From: Candidatus Gastranaerophilales bacterium
Lineage (GTDB): Bacteria > Cyanobacteriota > Vampirovibrionia > Gastranaerophilales > Gastranaerophilaceae
Direction: 5' to 3'
DNA length: 64,000 bases
NCBI GenBank assembly: GCA_944324175.1
Contig: CALUVH010000007.1
Span: 1 to 64,000, forward strand
Part shown: positions 4,422-29,324 of the stretch, piece by piece
Position numbering within the stretch: the stretch's first letter is position 1
How the letters are laid out: every line of letters starts with the position of its first letter
Made by a program: the position numbers and the translations under genes
The notes under the pieces: model-generated
What the model saw: the letters and a program-made list of their open reading frames with translations, nothing else
Told to the model about the DNA's origin: nothing
Database searches by the model: none

Positions 4422-6014
4422 CTAACTAAATAATGCATTTATTTTATCGACAATTTCTTGCGGATCCATCTCATTGGTTACTTTATTTATATCTTGAGCA
4501 ATTTGATACAATTTTGCAGCTTCTATTTTATCACCGACAATGGTTATTGCACGAGCAAGATTAAAATGAGCAAGGGCATAATTAGGATTACACTCGATTG
4601 ATTTTTTAAATAATTCTATAGCCTTTTGAACCCTGCCTAAATCATCAAGATAAATTACACCAAGATTGTTGTATGCAATATCATAATTATTGTCATATTC
4701 AATAGCTAACTCATATTCTTTTATAGCTTCGTCAATATCTCCCTTTCCCCAATATAGAAACCCTAAATTACAATGTATCTTAGCATTTTTAGGGTCAAGA
4801 TCTAAAGCATTACGATATACAGCTAATGCATTGTCTACATCTTCCTTATCATAAAATGCACTACCAAGATTTACATAAATATCAATATCGTTTGGTGTTA
4901 AAAGGTAAGCACTCTGATAAGAACTTATTGCTGCATCCAAATCCTTCTTGGACTCTTGATAAACATATCCTAACGTCTGGTTAATAATACTTGTCCACTG
5001 CTTACGAGGATTTAAAGTTACTGCAGTTTGAAAATGTGATATTGCACCTTCCAAATCACCCTTTATATATAAAATATTGGCAAGATTAGAGTGAACATCA
5101 GGCATGTTTGGCATTAGCTGAATTAATTTTTGATAAATTTCGATAGCACTATCATAATCACCCTGTTCCTCATAAGCTTGACACAAGTGACGGTAAGCAG
5201 GGATATTCAAACTGTCAAGCCAAATTGCCATTTTATACTCAGTAATCGCATCATCAAATCTACCCATTGCTCGATACAAATCACCAAGTAAATAATACAA
5301 ATTAACCATACCCGGTGCTTTTTCAATGGCAGTAGTATAAGTATCAATCGCCTCATTTAACTGATTTAGCTGAATCTGAACTAGCCCTTTCCAAAAAACA
5401 GGTGCAAACTTCAAATATGAAATTGCTCTAATAACATTAGCAATAGCAATCCTATCAAATGGTAAGGTTAAAAGCGATAGCAAGTACTCATATTTTGACA
5501 TAAACCAATTTTTAAAACTTCTAAATGAAGATACACGATATAGATTAGAAAGCAAAAAGTGAGCACAAGAACTGGAAAAAGGTGCACAACTAATAGCTTT
5601 TTTTGCATTCATAGAAGCTTCCAAAAATCTCGCACGCTTAGTATATGTTTCGGCCAAAAGATAATAAGCCTTAGCATACTTAGAATCCTTTGATATTGCC
5701 ATATCAAGGTAATTTATTGTCTTATCCAAATCTCCCTTGAAATAATGAGCCTGACCTATTTTAAAATATATCTCAGGCGAATCGATGTAACTTTCTAATG
5801 CTCTTTGATACTCAGTAATTGCCTCATCTACATACTGACAGGAATTATAAATATCCAAATGCCATTCTAAATACAAATCTCCAAGTCGAACATGTAAATC
5901 AGGATTAGTCGGATCCTCCTGCAAACCCAATTGACACAATTCTATTGCATTTTTAACATTTCCAACTTGACGTTCTTTTTTTATCTTTTTCTCTAAAATT
6001 TTCGTATTATTCAT
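4422..6014 (-). CDS. TPR repeat protein
   Basis: 530 residues built almost wholly of tetratricopeptide repeats, about 12 units of 34 residues with the usual W/L-G-Y-A-F-P spacing. Clear examples are NLYYLLGDLYRAMGRFDDAI and HCNLGFLYWGKGDIDEAI. No signal peptide or transmembrane helix is visible, so it is probably a cytoplasmic scaffold. Partner unknown. Monocistronic: the neighbours point the other way on both sides. No Shine-Dalgarno is evident before the ATG at 6014; the upstream region is A/T-rich. Confidence 0.85.
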   Translation of the reverse strand: MNNTKILEKKIKKERQVGNVKNAIELCQLGLQEDPTNPDLHVRLGDLYLEWHLDIYNSCQYVDEAITEYQRALESYIDSPEIYFKIGQAHYFKGDLDKTINYLDMAISKDSKYAKAYYLLAETYTKRARFLEASMNAKKAISCAPFSSSCAHFLLSNLYRVSSFRSFKNWFMSKYEYLLSLLTLPFDRIAIANVIRAISYLKFAPVFWKGLVQIQLNQLNEAIDTYTTAIEKAPGMVNLYYLLGDLYRAMGRFDDAITEYKMAIWLDSLNIPAYRHLCQAYEEQGDYDSAIEIYQKLIQLMPNMPDVHSNLANILYIKGDLEGAISHFQTAVTLNPRKQWTSIINQTLGYVYQESKKDLDAAISSYQSAYLLTPNDIDIYVNLGSAFYDKEDVDNALAVYRNALDLDPKNAKIHCNLGFLYWGKGDIDEAIKEYELAIEYDNNYDIAYNNLGVIYLDDLGRVQKAIELFKKSIECNPNYALAHFNLARAITIVGDKIEAAKLYQIAQDINKVTNEMDPQEIVDKINALFS

Positions 6015-6150: not shown

Positions 6151-7461
6151 ATGAAAGAAAACAGAATTTATTTTGTGGATGTAACAAATCGTGATGGAGT
6201 ACAAACATCCCGTTTGGGACTTGCTAAATTACAAAAAACAATCATAAATGTAATGCTGGATGAAATGGGTATAACCCAATCTGAATTCGGTTTTCCGACA
6301 ACAAAGCACGAAATAAATTATCTGAATGGTAATCTTGAATTGGTGGAAAGAGAAGTAATATCTAAAACAAAACTTTCAGGCTGGATGAGAAGTATTGCAG
6401 AAGATGTTGAATTATCATTTAAAAATGTACCAAAATTAAAAAATATAAACCTTTCACAATCAACATCACAGCAAATGATAAATGGAAAATACCAAGGCAA
6501 AAAGACTCCTGAAGATATGATTTTAATGACACACGACGCTATACAGTGTGCAATTGAAAAAGGGGCAGAAATAATCGGAGTAAATGCAGAGGATGCATCA
6601 AGAAGTGATTTGGACTATTTGATACGATATGCACAAGCAGCAAAAGCAGCAGGAGCAAGTCGTTTTAGATACTGTGATACTCTCGGATATGAAGATCCTC
6701 AGACAACTTATGAAAGAATATTTCAGATTGCTCAAGAAACAAACATGCCTATTGAATTACATTTTCACAATGACCTTGGTATGGCTACTGCATGCTCTGT
6801 CATGGGAGCTAGAGCTGCTATAGATGCGGGTGTTGATGCATATATAAATACAGCAATTAACGGTATGGGCGAACGAGCTGGAAATGCAGATTTGGTATCT
6901 TGCCTTTTAGCAGTTCTAAAATCAGCAGGATTTAAAGATAAATATAAAATTGATCCTAACATAGACTTAAGTAAGGCATGGCAACTGGCAAAATATACCG
7001 CTTACGCATTTGGAGTTCCTATTCCTATAAATCAACCGGCAGTAGGCGATAATGCCTTTGCACATGAATCCGGTATCCACGCGGACGGGGCACTCAAAGA
7101 CCGAAGAAACTACGAATTATACGACTTTGAAGAATTGGGACGTGGTGAGCCTGAAATAATTGAGACAGGTAGAATGATTACAACCGGGGAATATGGTGGA
7201 ATTAAAGGATTCAGAAATGTGTACAACAACTTGGAAATTGAATTCAAGGATGAGCATGAAGCAAGAAATATCTTGGAACTTGCAAGATATGCTAACGTAC
7301 ATACTCAAAAACCTCTAACTTCAAGTGAACTACGATTTATTTACTATTATCCTGACATAGCAGCGCAAGTCATGACAGTATCACCTTATTATGAGCCAAT
7401 TGGAGCTATAAAAGATCGTGTAGAAGCTGATAAAATAAATCACCCTCATTGGAGTATTTAA
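6151..7461 (+). CDS. Homocitrate synthase / 2-isopropylmalate synthase family enzyme
   Basis: Acyl-CoA:2-oxo-acid condensing enzyme of the HMGL-like TIM-barrel family. It begins with VDVTNRDGVQ (the DxTxRDGxQ metal/substrate signature), has HFHNDLGMA and NGMGERAGNADL in the barrel, and HESGIHADG in the linker. At 436 residues it is shorter than LeuA with its regulatory domain, and HESGIHADG followed by the GEYGGIKGF motif is closer to NifV/Lys20-type homocitrate synthases. It therefore probably condenses acetyl-CoA with 2-oxoglutarate or a related 2-oxo acid; the exact substrate cannot be read. Ribosome site AAGGAG lies just before the ATG. The next gene encodes the matching aconitase-type isomerase, 70 bp downstream. 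Confidence 0.8.
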   Translation: MKENRIYFVDVTNRDGVQTSRLGLAKLQKTIINVMLDEMGITQSEFGFPTTKHEINYLNGNLELVEREVISKTKLSGWMRSIAEDVELSFKNVPKLKNINLSQSTSQQMINGKYQGKKTPEDMILMTHDAIQCAIEKGAEIIGVNAEDASRSDLDYLIRYAQAAKAAGASRFRYCDTLGYEDPQTTYERIFQIAQETNMPIELHFHNDLGMATACSVMGARAAIDAGVDAYINTAINGMGERAGNADLVSCLLAVLKSAGFKDKYKIDPNIDLSKAWQLAKYTAYAFGVPIPINQPAVGDNAFAHESGIHADGALKDRRNYELYDFEELGRGEPEIIETGRMITTGEYGGIKGFRNVYNNLEIEFKDEHEARNILELARYANVHTQKPLTSSELRFIYYYPDIAAQVMTVSPYYEPIGAIKDRVEADKINHPHWSI

Positions 7462-7531: not shown

Positions 7532-8773
7532 ATGGGATTAACGTTAGCAGAAAAAATTATATCAAAACATGCAGGTAAAGAAGTCCATGCAGGTGAGTTG
7601 GTTATTGCTAAAGTAGATGTGTGTGCAGTACAAGATGGAACTGGACCTTTGACTGTTCAAGAATTTAAAAAGTTAGGCAAAGAAAAATTAAATGCCCCTG
7701 AGCGTACAATTCTTTTTATTGACCATGCTTCCCCAAGTCCGAGAAAAGAACTTTCAAATACCCATACCGTACTGAGAAATTTTGCAAAAGAATATGGAGC
7801 AGTATTATCAGATGTTGGAGCAGGTGTATGTCACCAAAGACTCATTGAAACATTTGTTAACCCTGGAGAAATTCTTGTAGGTGCAGATTCTCACACTTGT
7901 ACCTCAGGAGCATTAGGAGCTTTTGCAACTGGCATGGGATCTACAGACATAGCAGTTGCTATGGCGCTTGGAAAAACCTGGTTAAAAGTACCCGCAACCT
8001 TCAAAATTGAAGTTAATGGTAAACTTAAAGAAGGTATTTGCTCTAAGGACCTTATGCTTCACTTGATTGGTATGATAGGAGCAGATGGTGCCACATACAA
8101 AGCACTTGAATTCTGTGGAGATACAATAGAAAACATGCCAATGTCTGAAAGGTTTACTCTTGCAAACATGGCCGTAGAAGCAGGTGCAAAGGCAGGATTA
8201 TTTATTGCTGATGAAAAAACAAGAGAATTTTTAAAAACCAAAGGACGTGAAGATAAATTTTCGACGCTAAAACCTGATAGTGATGCCGTTTATGAAAAAG
8301 TAATAAAAATAAATGCAGAAGACATACCTCATACAGTATCCTGTCCTCACACAGTTGACAATACAAAGAATGTAGAGGAACTTAAAGACATAAAAATTGA
8401 TCAAGTCTTTGTAGGGACTTGTACAAACGGCAGAATTGAGGATTTACGTATCGTTGCGAAGATTCTTGATGGGAAAAAAGTTAGCCCTAGTGTCAGAATG
8501 CTTATATGCCCAGCCTCTAAAGATGTGTACTTACAAGCATTAGAAGAAGGTCTAATAAAGACATTTGTAGAAGCGAATGCAACAATATTGCCACCAGGAT
8601 GCGGTCCATGTGTTGGAGTTCATGCTGGAACACTTGCCGATGGCGAGGTTTGCCTTGCTACTCAAAATAGAAATTTTCAGGGAAGAATGGGGAACACTAA
8701 TGGATTTATTTATCTATCATCACCATTCGTTGCAGCTCACTCTGCACTTAGAGGATATATTTCAGCACAATAG
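7532..8773 (+). CDS. 3-isopropylmalate dehydratase / homoaconitase large subunit
   Basis: Aconitase-superfamily large subunit, 413 residues, the usual size of the archaeal/clostridial LeuC/HacA type. Fe4S4 ligands are visible in VGTCTNGR and in PPGCGPCVG (two cysteines). Further signatures are GADSHTCTSGA and GVCHQRLIE. It should isomerise the product of the preceding condensing enzyme: isopropylmalate if that is a LeuA, homocitrate or homoaconitate if it is a homocitrate synthase. The small swivelling subunit (LeuD/HacB) is not next to it and must be elsewhere. Strong AAGGAG site 6 nt before the ATG. Confidence 0.85.
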   Translation: MGLTLAEKIISKHAGKEVHAGELVIAKVDVCAVQDGTGPLTVQEFKKLGKEKLNAPERTILFIDHASPSPRKELSNTHTVLRNFAKEYGAVLSDVGAGVCHQRLIETFVNPGEILVGADSHTCTSGALGAFATGMGSTDIAVAMALGKTWLKVPATFKIEVNGKLKEGICSKDLMLHLIGMIGADGATYKALEFCGDTIENMPMSERFTLANMAVEAGAKAGLFIADEKTREFLKTKGREDKFSTLKPDSDAVYEKVIKINAEDIPHTVSCPHTVDNTKNVEELKDIKIDQVFVGTCTNGRIEDLRIVAKILDGKKVSPSVRMLICPASKDVYLQALEEGLIKTFVEANATILPPGCGPCVGVHAGTLADGEVCLATQNRNFQGRMGNTNGFIYLSSPFVAAHSALRGYISAQ

Positions 8774-8839
8774 TTATAATCTTAATACAAAAAATATACT
8801 CCTTTAGTTATATTACAAAGCATGAGTTATTGAAAGATT

Positions 8840-8868
8840 AAACTCCTTACTATGTATGTAAGGAGTTT
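8840..8868 (+). promoter_or_regulatory. Perfect hairpin sequestering the sigma-factor ribosome site
   Basis: An 11-bp perfect inverted repeat: left arm 8840-8850, loop TATGTAT 8851-8857, right arm 8858-8868. The right arm contains AGGAG (8861-8865), the ribosome site for ATG 8873, so folding would mask it. The loop holds an alternative in-frame ATG at 8852. Only four T residues follow, so it would be a weak terminator for the preceding gene, though a double role is possible. Confidence 0.65.
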
Positions 8869-8872
8869 TACT

Positions 8873-9469
8873 ATGGCAGAAAAATTGCAATATAAAAAAA
8901 TGTCACTAGAAGAATTGGTAATTTTATCTCAACAGAATAATTTTAAAGCTTTGGAAGAATTGATTCGTAGAGTACAAAAAGAGATTTTTACAACCTTTTC
9001 TTACCTCAACAAAAAACGCGAAAATGTAGCAGACTTAACCCAAGAAGCACTACTTAAAATTGCAAAAAATATTCATTCTTTAAAAAACCCCAAATTATTC
9101 AAAAGTTGGTCTAATCAAATTGTGACAAACCTTTTTTATGATGAACTGAGAAAAACGCAACGCAGACCTGATTTTGTTTCAATAGATGATGAAAATGATG
9201 AAAAAAATGCAATTACTATAAAGTTTCAAATCCCAGATAAAAAATGCAAACCTCATGAAAAATGTATGTCATCAGAATTAGAAAAAGTAATCAAAGATGC
9301 AATACAACAATTACCGGAACAATTTAGAATAGCAATAGTCTTAAGAGAATTACAAGGACTTTCTTATGAAGAAATTGCGAATGTAACAAAAACGAATGTT
9401 GGAACGGTAAAATCAAGAATTGCAAGAGCAAGAGTAAAACTACAAGACGGACTAAAATCATATATCTAG
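8873..9469 (+). CDS. ECF-type RNA polymerase sigma factor
   Basis: 198-residue sigma-70 family protein with region 2 (about 20-95, including DLTQEALLKIAKNI) and region 4 (about 145-195, GLSYEEIANVTKTNVGTVKSR helix-turn-helix). Regions 1 and 3 are missing, as in ECF (group 4) sigma factors. I start it at ATG 8873 because AGGAG lies 7 nt upstream; the ATG at 8852 adds seven residues and lies in a hairpin loop. The next gene, 10 bp downstream, encodes a zinc-type anti-sigma factor, so the pair is a membrane-signalling module. Target regulon unknown. Confidence 0.9.
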   Translation: MAEKLQYKKMSLEELVILSQQNNFKALEELIRRVQKEIFTTFSYLNKKRENVADLTQEALLKIAKNIHSLKNPKLFKSWSNQIVTNLFYDELRKTQRRPDFVSIDDENDEKNAITIKFQIPDKKCKPHEKCMSSELEKVIKDAIQQLPEQFRIAIVLRELQGLSYEEIANVTKTNVGTVKSRIARARVKLQDGLKSYI

Positions 9470-9479
9470 GAGAATAAAT

Positions 9480-10028
9480 ATGCAAAAAGAATTAACTTGT
9501 GAACAAGTAGGGGCAATAATAACTTTCTACTTAGAAGGGAAACTATCAGATTCATTAAAAAAAGCTGTTAAAAAGCATCTTGATAGCTGTCCTGAATGTC
9601 ATGCAAAATTTGAGGAACTCAAACAAATGGTAAACTACTTTGAAAAAAGTATTAATGAAAAAAATGACACATCAGATGACATTGTAAAAAGTGAGTATCA
9701 AAAAAGGCAATACGCTGAATTCAAATACAATCTTTCAGCTTACTTAGATAATGAACTTGATGATAAAGAAAATATTAGAATAAAAAAAATAACTATCTCT
9801 AATCCCATAGCAAGAAAAGACCTTGAAGATATGTATTCATTCAAAAAAATTTTACACAACTCATTTGATATAACTAAAAATGAATTAAAACAAGATTTTG
9901 CAAAAACAGTAATCAATGAAATGCATGAACACAAAAACAATACAGAAATTAGCTTCCAAAAACTTACATTCGCCTTTTTCGCTATATTAACATTAATAAT
10001 AATCGGAGCTATAAAACTCTGGTTCTAA
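9480..10028 (+). CDS. Anti-sigma factor, zinc-finger type, single C-terminal TM
   Basis: Predicted membrane-anchored inhibitor of the preceding sigma factor. The N-terminal ZAS domain carries HxxxCxxC (H33, C37, C40) in HLDSCPEC. A second segment (about 78-125, with FKYNLSAYLDNELDDKENIR) looks like another zf-HC2-type fold lacking the cysteines. One transmembrane helix lies at about 161-182 with almost nothing beyond it, so there is little periplasmic sensor domain; a signal would have to reach it in the membrane or cytoplasm. AGGAG lies just before the ATG. Its last bases overlap the end of the convergent next gene by 4 bp. Confidence 0.85.
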   Translation: MQKELTCEQVGAIITFYLEGKLSDSLKKAVKKHLDSCPECHAKFEELKQMVNYFEKSINEKNDTSDDIVKSEYQKRQYAEFKYNLSAYLDNELDDKENIRIKKITISNPIARKDLEDMYSFKKILHNSFDITKNELKQDFAKTVINEMHEHKNNTEISFQKLTFAFFAILTLIIIGAIKLWF

Positions 10029-27895: not shown

Positions 27896-28394
27896 ATATT
27901 TTTTGTCTGGTTTTTACTACCTAATAACTACTTACTATTATAACAAGCACACATTTAGTATAAAAGTGGTAAAAAATAAAAATTGCTACTTTTACACTTA
28001 ATGTAAAGTTTATATTAAGACAGATTTTTATTTTTTTATTAAAAATAGAGTTTTTTAAATTGATTCTATAAAAATTGCAACAAGAAAATAACAAAATTTA
28101 ATAAAAAAACAGTCAAAATAATAAAATATTAAAAGATTTTTTTTGTAAATTTTTGTAAATTTTTTCACTTTACACATAGAAAATGAAAAATAAACGAACT
28201 TTTAAGACAATTATCCAAACTAGAAAATAAAATAACATAACCTGACAGTATAATACTTTCATGCAATATCAAAAGAATTATGGGACTTTTTATCTAGAGA
28301 AAAGCTATAATTTTTGAGCAAAATTAAATCACAATCCCGTAGAATAGTTTTTAACAACATTCACCCTTATCATAGCGATAAGGAGTTTTTTAAT
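27896..28394. other. A/T-rich divergent intergenic region with short tandem repeat
   Basis: About 500 bp without a gene, the longest such stretch here. It holds a TATAAT for the leftward gene (27942-27937), TATAAT boxes for the rightward gene at 28249-28254 and 28306-28311 (neither with a convincing -35), and two exact copies of TTTTGTAAAT at 28141-28160. I see no RNA gene or conserved leader structure. Confidence 0.5.
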
Positions 28395-29324
28395 ATGAAA
28401 AAAATTATCATCGCAATATGTCTAATAATGAGTATAAATTGTGTACAAGCAGGACAATACACTGCCACAATAGATAAAATAGAAAACGAAATATTCGGAT
28501 TCCAATATGGTAATGAAAGTGATGAACAAAGATTAAGCCGAATTGAAGAAAGCGTATACGGCAGAGCATCATCAGGCAGCACACAAACTCGAGTAGCTAA
28601 GCTCACAAAAGATCTTTCAGCTAATGAAATAGGGAAAGAAATAACACCTCGAGAAGACACCTTTATGGATGAAACAGGAGACTACATAGCAGAAAATCCA
28701 ATTCCTCAAGGTCCTAATGTTGATTATCCAGCTGTAAATGAACTTGAAAAAATAGTATTCAATAAAGAAAATAAAAATCAAGATATAAGCATAAGATTGT
28801 CAAATCTGGAAAAAGAAACATTCGGAAAGACATACAATGACGATTTAAGTACAAGATTAGACAGGCTGAGAGCAGAACTAAAACCGTCCTCACTACTTGA
28901 TAATCAAATAGCACAGTCATCAAATTCTTTTTACGATGACGAAATTGTAGAACTTGATAAAGACTACCATCTCGACAGATATGAACCGCCATCATTTGAC
29001 TACGATGCTTACAATGCAAGGCATACAATGCCCCAAACTGCTTCCAGGTCAAAGCAAACAAATATTGCAAGCATAGAAAAATCGTTATTCAAACAGTCTT
29101 TTAATAACGACAGTATAGACACAAGATTATCAAGGATAGAATCAGGCATGTTTGGAACGACATTTGCTAATGATACCCAACAGGACAGATTAAACAGAAT
29201 ATCAAGTGCGTACAGTGCACAAAAAACTGCCAAAAGTTATGACTCAAATAAATTCACCCAAAATATGGCAACAGCCATGCAAATCGGGACACTAATCTTA
29301 ATGGTACTTGCATGCGTACTGTAA
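28395..29324 (+). CDS. Secreted protein with IE-x-x-x-F-G / R-L-x-R-I-E repeats
   Basis: 309 residues from ATG 28395 (AAGGAG at 28380-28385); the longer frame from TTG 28314 has no support. Signal peptide MKKIIIAICLIMSINCVQAG. The body has several copies of a two-part repeat, for example IDKIENEIFGFQYGNESDEQ then RLSRIEESVYGR, LEKETFGKTYNDDLSTRLDR, and IEKSLFKQSFNNDSIDTRLS then RIESGMFG. A hydrophobic C-terminal helix ends the protein. The same repeat is in the secreted protein at 55.0-55.6 kb. Function unknown; probably envelope-anchored. Confidence 0.75.
   Translation: MKKIIIAICLIMSINCVQAGQYTATIDKIENEIFGFQYGNESDEQRLSRIEESVYGRASSGSTQTRVAKLTKDLSANEIGKEITPREDTFMDETGDYIAENPIPQGPNVDYPAVNELEKIVFNKENKNQDISIRLSNLEKETFGKTYNDDLSTRLDRLRAELKPSSLLDNQIAQSSNSFYDDEIVELDKDYHLDRYEPPSFDYDAYNARHTMPQTASRSKQTNIASIEKSLFKQSFNNDSIDTRLSRIESGMFGTTFANDTQQDRLNRISSAYSAQKTAKSYDSNKFTQNMATAMQIGTLILMVLACVL

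Follow-up and report, generated by a model that had tools for sequence, protein, structure and literature searches.

A covarying hairpin over the ribosome site of an ECF sigma factor gene as a probable translational insulator against read-through transcription

The sigma/anti-sigma locus and its leader

We analyzed a stretch of 64,000 nucleotides (hereafter the window) belonging to a 1.68-Mb, 38-contig genome whose relatives carry the name Candidatus Gastranaerophilales. It encodes an ECF sigma factor with Sigma70 regions 2 and 4 only and, adjoining it, a zinc-finger (zf-HC2) protein (Table 1), which confirms the sigma/anti-sigma pair proposed in the initial annotation of this DNA. The leuC-like gene ends 99 nt 5′ of the sigma gene, and no terminator was found between the two in the window. 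A possible second promoter is the TATAAT-like box (8773-8785) at the stop codon of leuC; in many relatives, this box lies at a nearly constant distance from the elements that follow it. The same genome features a second ECF sigma paralogue (L010, G000:C27) that starts at TAATG, has no such hairpin as described below and is apparently coupled to its upstream gene.

The leader of the sigma gene displays a hairpin (8840-8868, plus strand) of 11 uninterrupted Watson-Crick pairs, four of them G-C, with a 7-nt loop, exactly as first annotated, and this element dominates the predicted fold of the leader. Its 3′ arm includes the Shine-Dalgarno (SD) sequence AAGGAG (8860-8865), 7 nt 5′ of the ATG at 8873; together with the covariation of the stem (see below), this upholds the original proposal that the ribosome site of the gene is buried. 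The energy needed to open this site is predicted to be 13.8 kcal/mol, the highest among the 24 SD-led ATGs tested in the window. An in-frame ATG is indeed present in the loop (8852-8854), as had been pointed out, but its suggested use as an alternative start is not conserved: a stop codon follows it in one relative (L004), it is out of frame in another (L007) and the N-termini of the relatives share the start at 8873. Two further candidates in the leader were set aside, namely a mini-ORF (ATG AGT TAT TGA, at 8822) that is unconserved in relatives and a second upstream stem (ATAACC/GGTTAT), judged by eye to pair in some genera only and left uncounted.

Table 1. Features of the sigma factor locus, in window coordinates
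Feature	Position	Strand	Basis or remark
TPR-repeat gene	4422..6014	-	adjoins the sigma gene directly in species without the leuC cassette
Isopropylmalate/homocitrate synthase-like gene	6151..7461	+	first gene of a cassette variably present between the TPR gene and the sigma gene
leuC-like aconitase-family gene	7532..8773	+	presumed source of read-through
Conserved upstream promoter element (putative), AAAAATATANYCC...TATATNNCAAAGNATGAGNAA	8787..8831, core 8817-8829	+	ungapped spacing to the -10 box
5′ arm (anti-SD arm), AAACTCCTTAC	8840..8850	+	fold; covariation
Predicted P2 -10 element, TACTAT, inside the hairpin	8848..8853	+	TANNAT kept with fixed spacing in relatives
Loop, TATGTAT	8851..8857	+	includes the non-conserved in-frame ATG
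3′ arm, GTAAGGAGTTT	8858..8868	+	includes the SD
Predicted P2 transcription start	8860	+	seventh nt after the -10 box, from leaderless relatives; 13-nt leader
ECF sigma factor gene	8873..9469	+	Pfam Sigma70_r2/r4_2, NCBIfam sigma70-ECF; ATG from the N-termini of relatives
Anti-sigma factor (zf-HC2) gene	9480..10028	+	domain match

Conservation of the stem and its upstream neighbor

Homologues of the sigma factor are found in 175 of the 191 genomes of the family, and the leaders read from these carry the stem at the same position in relatives of many genera. Across 42 distinct leaders, 88.5% of the cells of the 11-pair stem form a pair, and the comparison of related genomes that had been suggested as a check reveals compensatory change: both-side changes number 38, distributed over six of the 11 pairs, as against 17.3 ± 2.4 in shuffles, and the covariation score is 0.266 as against 0.154 ± 0.012 (shuffled) and at most 0.103 (slid controls), the shuffle figures not being probabilities, as many related sequences are counted. 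When changes are placed on the tree, those in the left arm opposite the fixed G's of the SD comprise 26 pairing-neutral C-U changes as against 10 that break pairing, and few fall opposite A; the closing pair is CG, AU or UA, with five compensatory changes there. A stricter, independent-branch test, which asks whether paired changes coincide on the same branch, reached significance at just one outer pair.

The pairing-neutral C-U changes and the variable spacing of the arms (loops of 6-9 nt among relatives) argue for pairing in RNA rather than a DNA palindrome. An operator in which a repressor binds the inverted repeat over the -10 box would explain why the palindrome overlaps a promoter-like sequence (see below); yet it is quite improbable, as its half-sites would be variably spaced, substitutions in the arms preserve G-U pairing at the expense of the symmetry that a DNA palindrome needs, the right arm is held constant as the SD and the presence of the repeat tracks the direction of the upstream gene. 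With its pairing conserved and covarying across many genera, the hairpin is, on this comparative evidence, under selection as an RNA structure, and translation must be the step at which it acts. To this extent the translational layer envisaged in the initial annotation stands, whereas the associated ideas of a melting switch, a terminator and a start in the loop are unsupported.

A thermometer that melts at raised temperature would suit an SD that is fully sequestered in a mostly A-U stem. However, such melting is scarcely credible for the native stem, in which the SD has a predicted unpaired probability of 0.001 between 37 and 50 °C and of 0.007 at 65 °C (i.e., more than 99% paired up to 65 °C), and relatives have stem energies between about -5 and -18 kcal/mol, without tuning to any one temperature. 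A role as a weak terminator or 3′-end stabilizer of the leuC mRNA is highly unlikely: although the hairpin follows leuC closely, the native arm continues into TTTT and some relatives have a U-rich tail, most have GGAGAAATTT without a U-tract, the SD invariably occupies the 3′ arm and the hairpin is missing from the terminator predictions. Hence, the suggestion that it might partly terminate the preceding gene finds no backing, and the element lacks the combination of a GC-rich stem with a conserved U-tract that typifies intrinsic terminators. In Rfam, no family scored above its gathering threshold for the leader.

Counting the hairpin as present when its stem is -5 kcal/mol or stronger, we found it at 67 of the 87 loci where the upstream gene is co-directional and at one of the 27 where it is divergent. 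Where leuC lies directly upstream in the same direction, 80-150 nt nearly always separate its stop codon from the sigma start, with one locus at 251 nt. No terminator-like site precedes the sigma gene at 66 of the 67 hairpin loci, and beside co-directional neighbors other than leuC the hairpin is absent from 12 of 18 loci. Some sister species lack the synthase-leuC cassette and have the divergent TPR gene directly next to the sigma gene; at such cassette-less loci, the predicted promoter described below is retained and the hairpin has usually decayed. Among the SD-bearing species of one genus of 16 species, opening the ribosome site is predicted to require 10.2-14.3 kcal/mol beside leuC and 3.0, 3.2, 4.7 and 6.0 kcal/mol beside the divergent TPR gene, the exception being L014 (10.6 kcal/mol), which retains the hairpin without leuC. 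Corrected for kinship, the link with gene order comes down to about three informative independent pairs that agree and none that disagrees, which falls short of significance (p 0.25), and the data are compatible with the cassette having been lost just once (p 0.106).

A promoter-like box within the hairpin

At the point where the 5′ arm passes into the loop stands TACTAT, a sequence that looks like the -10 element of a promoter internal to the hairpin (P2). With few exceptions, members of the clade have a TANNAT box at this junction, even where their hairpins are degenerate; it is retained in hairpin-bearing, hairpin-less and leaderless (SD-less) relatives, and is present in all species of the above 16-species genus, whether the neighbor is leuC or the TPR gene. 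It is preceded by a unit, AAAGNATGAGNAA, at a single ungapped distance in most leaders of all three kinds, and the 45 nt upstream are conserved and almost free of indels. In the SD-less relatives L024, L049, L080, L081, L128 and L141, the distance from the box to the ATG is exactly 6 nt; with L241 as a further leaderless lineage, this pattern is seen in five lineages in all. A leaderless mRNA that starts 7 nt after a -10 box would show just this distance. By analogy, we place the start of P2 about 7 nt after the box, near 8860 and thus within the 3′ arm, which would yield a short leader of 13 nt that opens with AAGGAG, i.e., with the SD at its extreme 5′ end. The box in the leaderless sigma genes (L024, L049, L080, L081, L128, L141 and L241) is also given as TANNNT. 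The upstream element TGATTATATAACAAAGA (8787-8831 in the window) is retained in hairpin-less genera (L070, L071, L090, L093 and L096) and is possibly an activator site.

We found no good sigma70 -35 hexamer for P2, and matches to the P2 motif elsewhere in the genome are little above the control, without clear enrichment. An autoregulated ECF promoter (-35 'TATAACC', -10 'GNATGAG') was considered and rejected, as the conserved unit is instead keyed at a fixed spacing to TANNAT; the 32-base pattern used in this check has a single match in the genome. Likewise, a search for copies of the hairpin across a regulon (model R1) recovered the sigma leader as the sole strong match, the others being weak, and a genome search with a pattern of the same architecture gave matches no commoner than in the control.

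A transcript starting inside the hairpin had been named at the outset as grounds for abandoning a role of the structure. The predicted -10 box of the gene's own promoter does lie there, and such a start appears to be half of the answer. The hairpin might alternatively be a switch on the gene's own mRNA, with transcription starting 5′ of 8840 (e.g., after TATAAT at 8775-8780 or after the element at 8787-8831) and a protein, small RNA or ligand opening the stem. The strong conservation and covariation of the hairpin would agree with this, as would the near absence of indels upstream, which a structured leader might display. Nevertheless, we consider such a switch unlikely, for it leaves unexplained the TANNAT box of hairpin-less relatives, the exact 6-nt distance in leaderless ones and the decay of the hairpin at cassette-less loci; moreover, the upstream element persists without the hairpin and Rfam yields no match to a cis-regulator.

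Proposed insulation from read-through and its parallels

We posit that the hairpin is probably a translational insulator against read-through from leuC, with P2 messages escaping the block. The covarying stem, the TANNAT box with its spacing, the leaderless relatives and the gene-order link are computational findings; the activity and exact start of P2, the read-through from leuC and the size of the block are inferred. Transcription running from the leuC operon, or from any start 5′ of 8840, would yield an RNA with both arms, in which the SD of the sigma gene would be locked in the stem. P2 messages would lack the 5′ arm, since they are predicted to start inside the 3′ arm, and would be freely translated. 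Thus, as the -10 box of P2 lies in the hairpin, the latter would act on the longer read-through RNA only. The predicted cost of opening the ribosome site at this locus drops from the above value on the read-through RNA to 3.0 kcal/mol on the P2 RNA, which also compares with a median of 12.2 kcal/mol on the read-through RNAs of co-directional relatives; with the cost high on one RNA and low on the other, the sigma factor would be made when P2 fires and not upon transcription of leuC.

This arrangement recalls phage T4 gene e, where lysozyme synthesis from long transcripts is about 100-fold reduced and the 5′ strand is missing from those of the late promoter (PMC3014915); the same logic of leaders silenced on read-through is seen in I-TevI and other homing endonucleases (PMC2988022), and the T4 set comprises the leaders of gene e, I-TevI/II/III, segB, soc and gene 49 (PMC3014915, PMC2988022). 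As in the gene e-type class, the SD at our locus is sequestered in a helix on upstream-started RNA. The predicted placement of P2, for which the comparative evidence is strong, would give short, translated transcripts without the 5′ arm, as the T4 promoters do. The T4 cases differ in using phage late promoters that time the lytic cycle, whereas the present site is chromosomal, its box looks sigma70-type, the gene codes for an ECF sigma factor and the presence of the hairpin tracks the neighboring gene; we claim no relation by descent. In IS10/IS50-type transposase genes, external read-through RNA also folds over the ribosome site and RNA from the internal promoter does not; their arms derive from the inverted ends of the element, while the present locus shows no sign of a mobile element. 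In sigma factor genes such as rpoH, RNA thermometers limit translation by a hairpin over the SD; in contrast to these, the native stem is predicted to stay closed to at least 65 °C, and the hairpin is likely absent from the functional sigma mRNA. The locus otherwise has the same gene pair as other ECF sigma/zinc-finger anti-sigma systems, to which the sigma leader is proposed to add translational insulation. A limited literature search found no bacterial chromosomal sigma gene with such insulation and no match on Gastranaerophilales sigma factors.

We give roughly even chances to a broader version of this proposal: a chromosomal, lineage-wide insulator that is gained and lost with the neighboring gene, in which the same bases serve as -10 box, anti-SD arm and SD, and to which the leaderless starts of some relatives are a second solution. 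These observations suggest that bacteria can do without a terminator when a dose-sensitive regulator has to be shielded from transcription spilling over from a neighbor, a form of shielding documented mainly in phage T4. If this holds, co-transcription with an upstream gene need not mean co-expression. Sister species that naturally lack the leuC cassette offer a ready test of the dependence of the insulator on neighboring transcription.

Other SD-sequestering hairpins were also observed. One in the window (28365-28383; CCTTATC-ATAGC-GATAAGG, with TATCAT inside) precedes a 309-aa ORF that starts at 28395 and is present in three of five genomes of the genus, with CCTTATCAT persisting in the two that lack it; as its upstream gene is divergent, the read-through model is not obviously applicable. 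In two genomes of the genus, a long hairpin (CTCCTGAA/TTCAGGAG) covers the SD of a conserved 174-aa protein (L183, 1501-1580; L185, 1501-1579). A further such hairpin (L187, 1501-1564, minus strand) lies 5′ of a gene for a 241-aa short-chain dehydrogenase resembling FabG.
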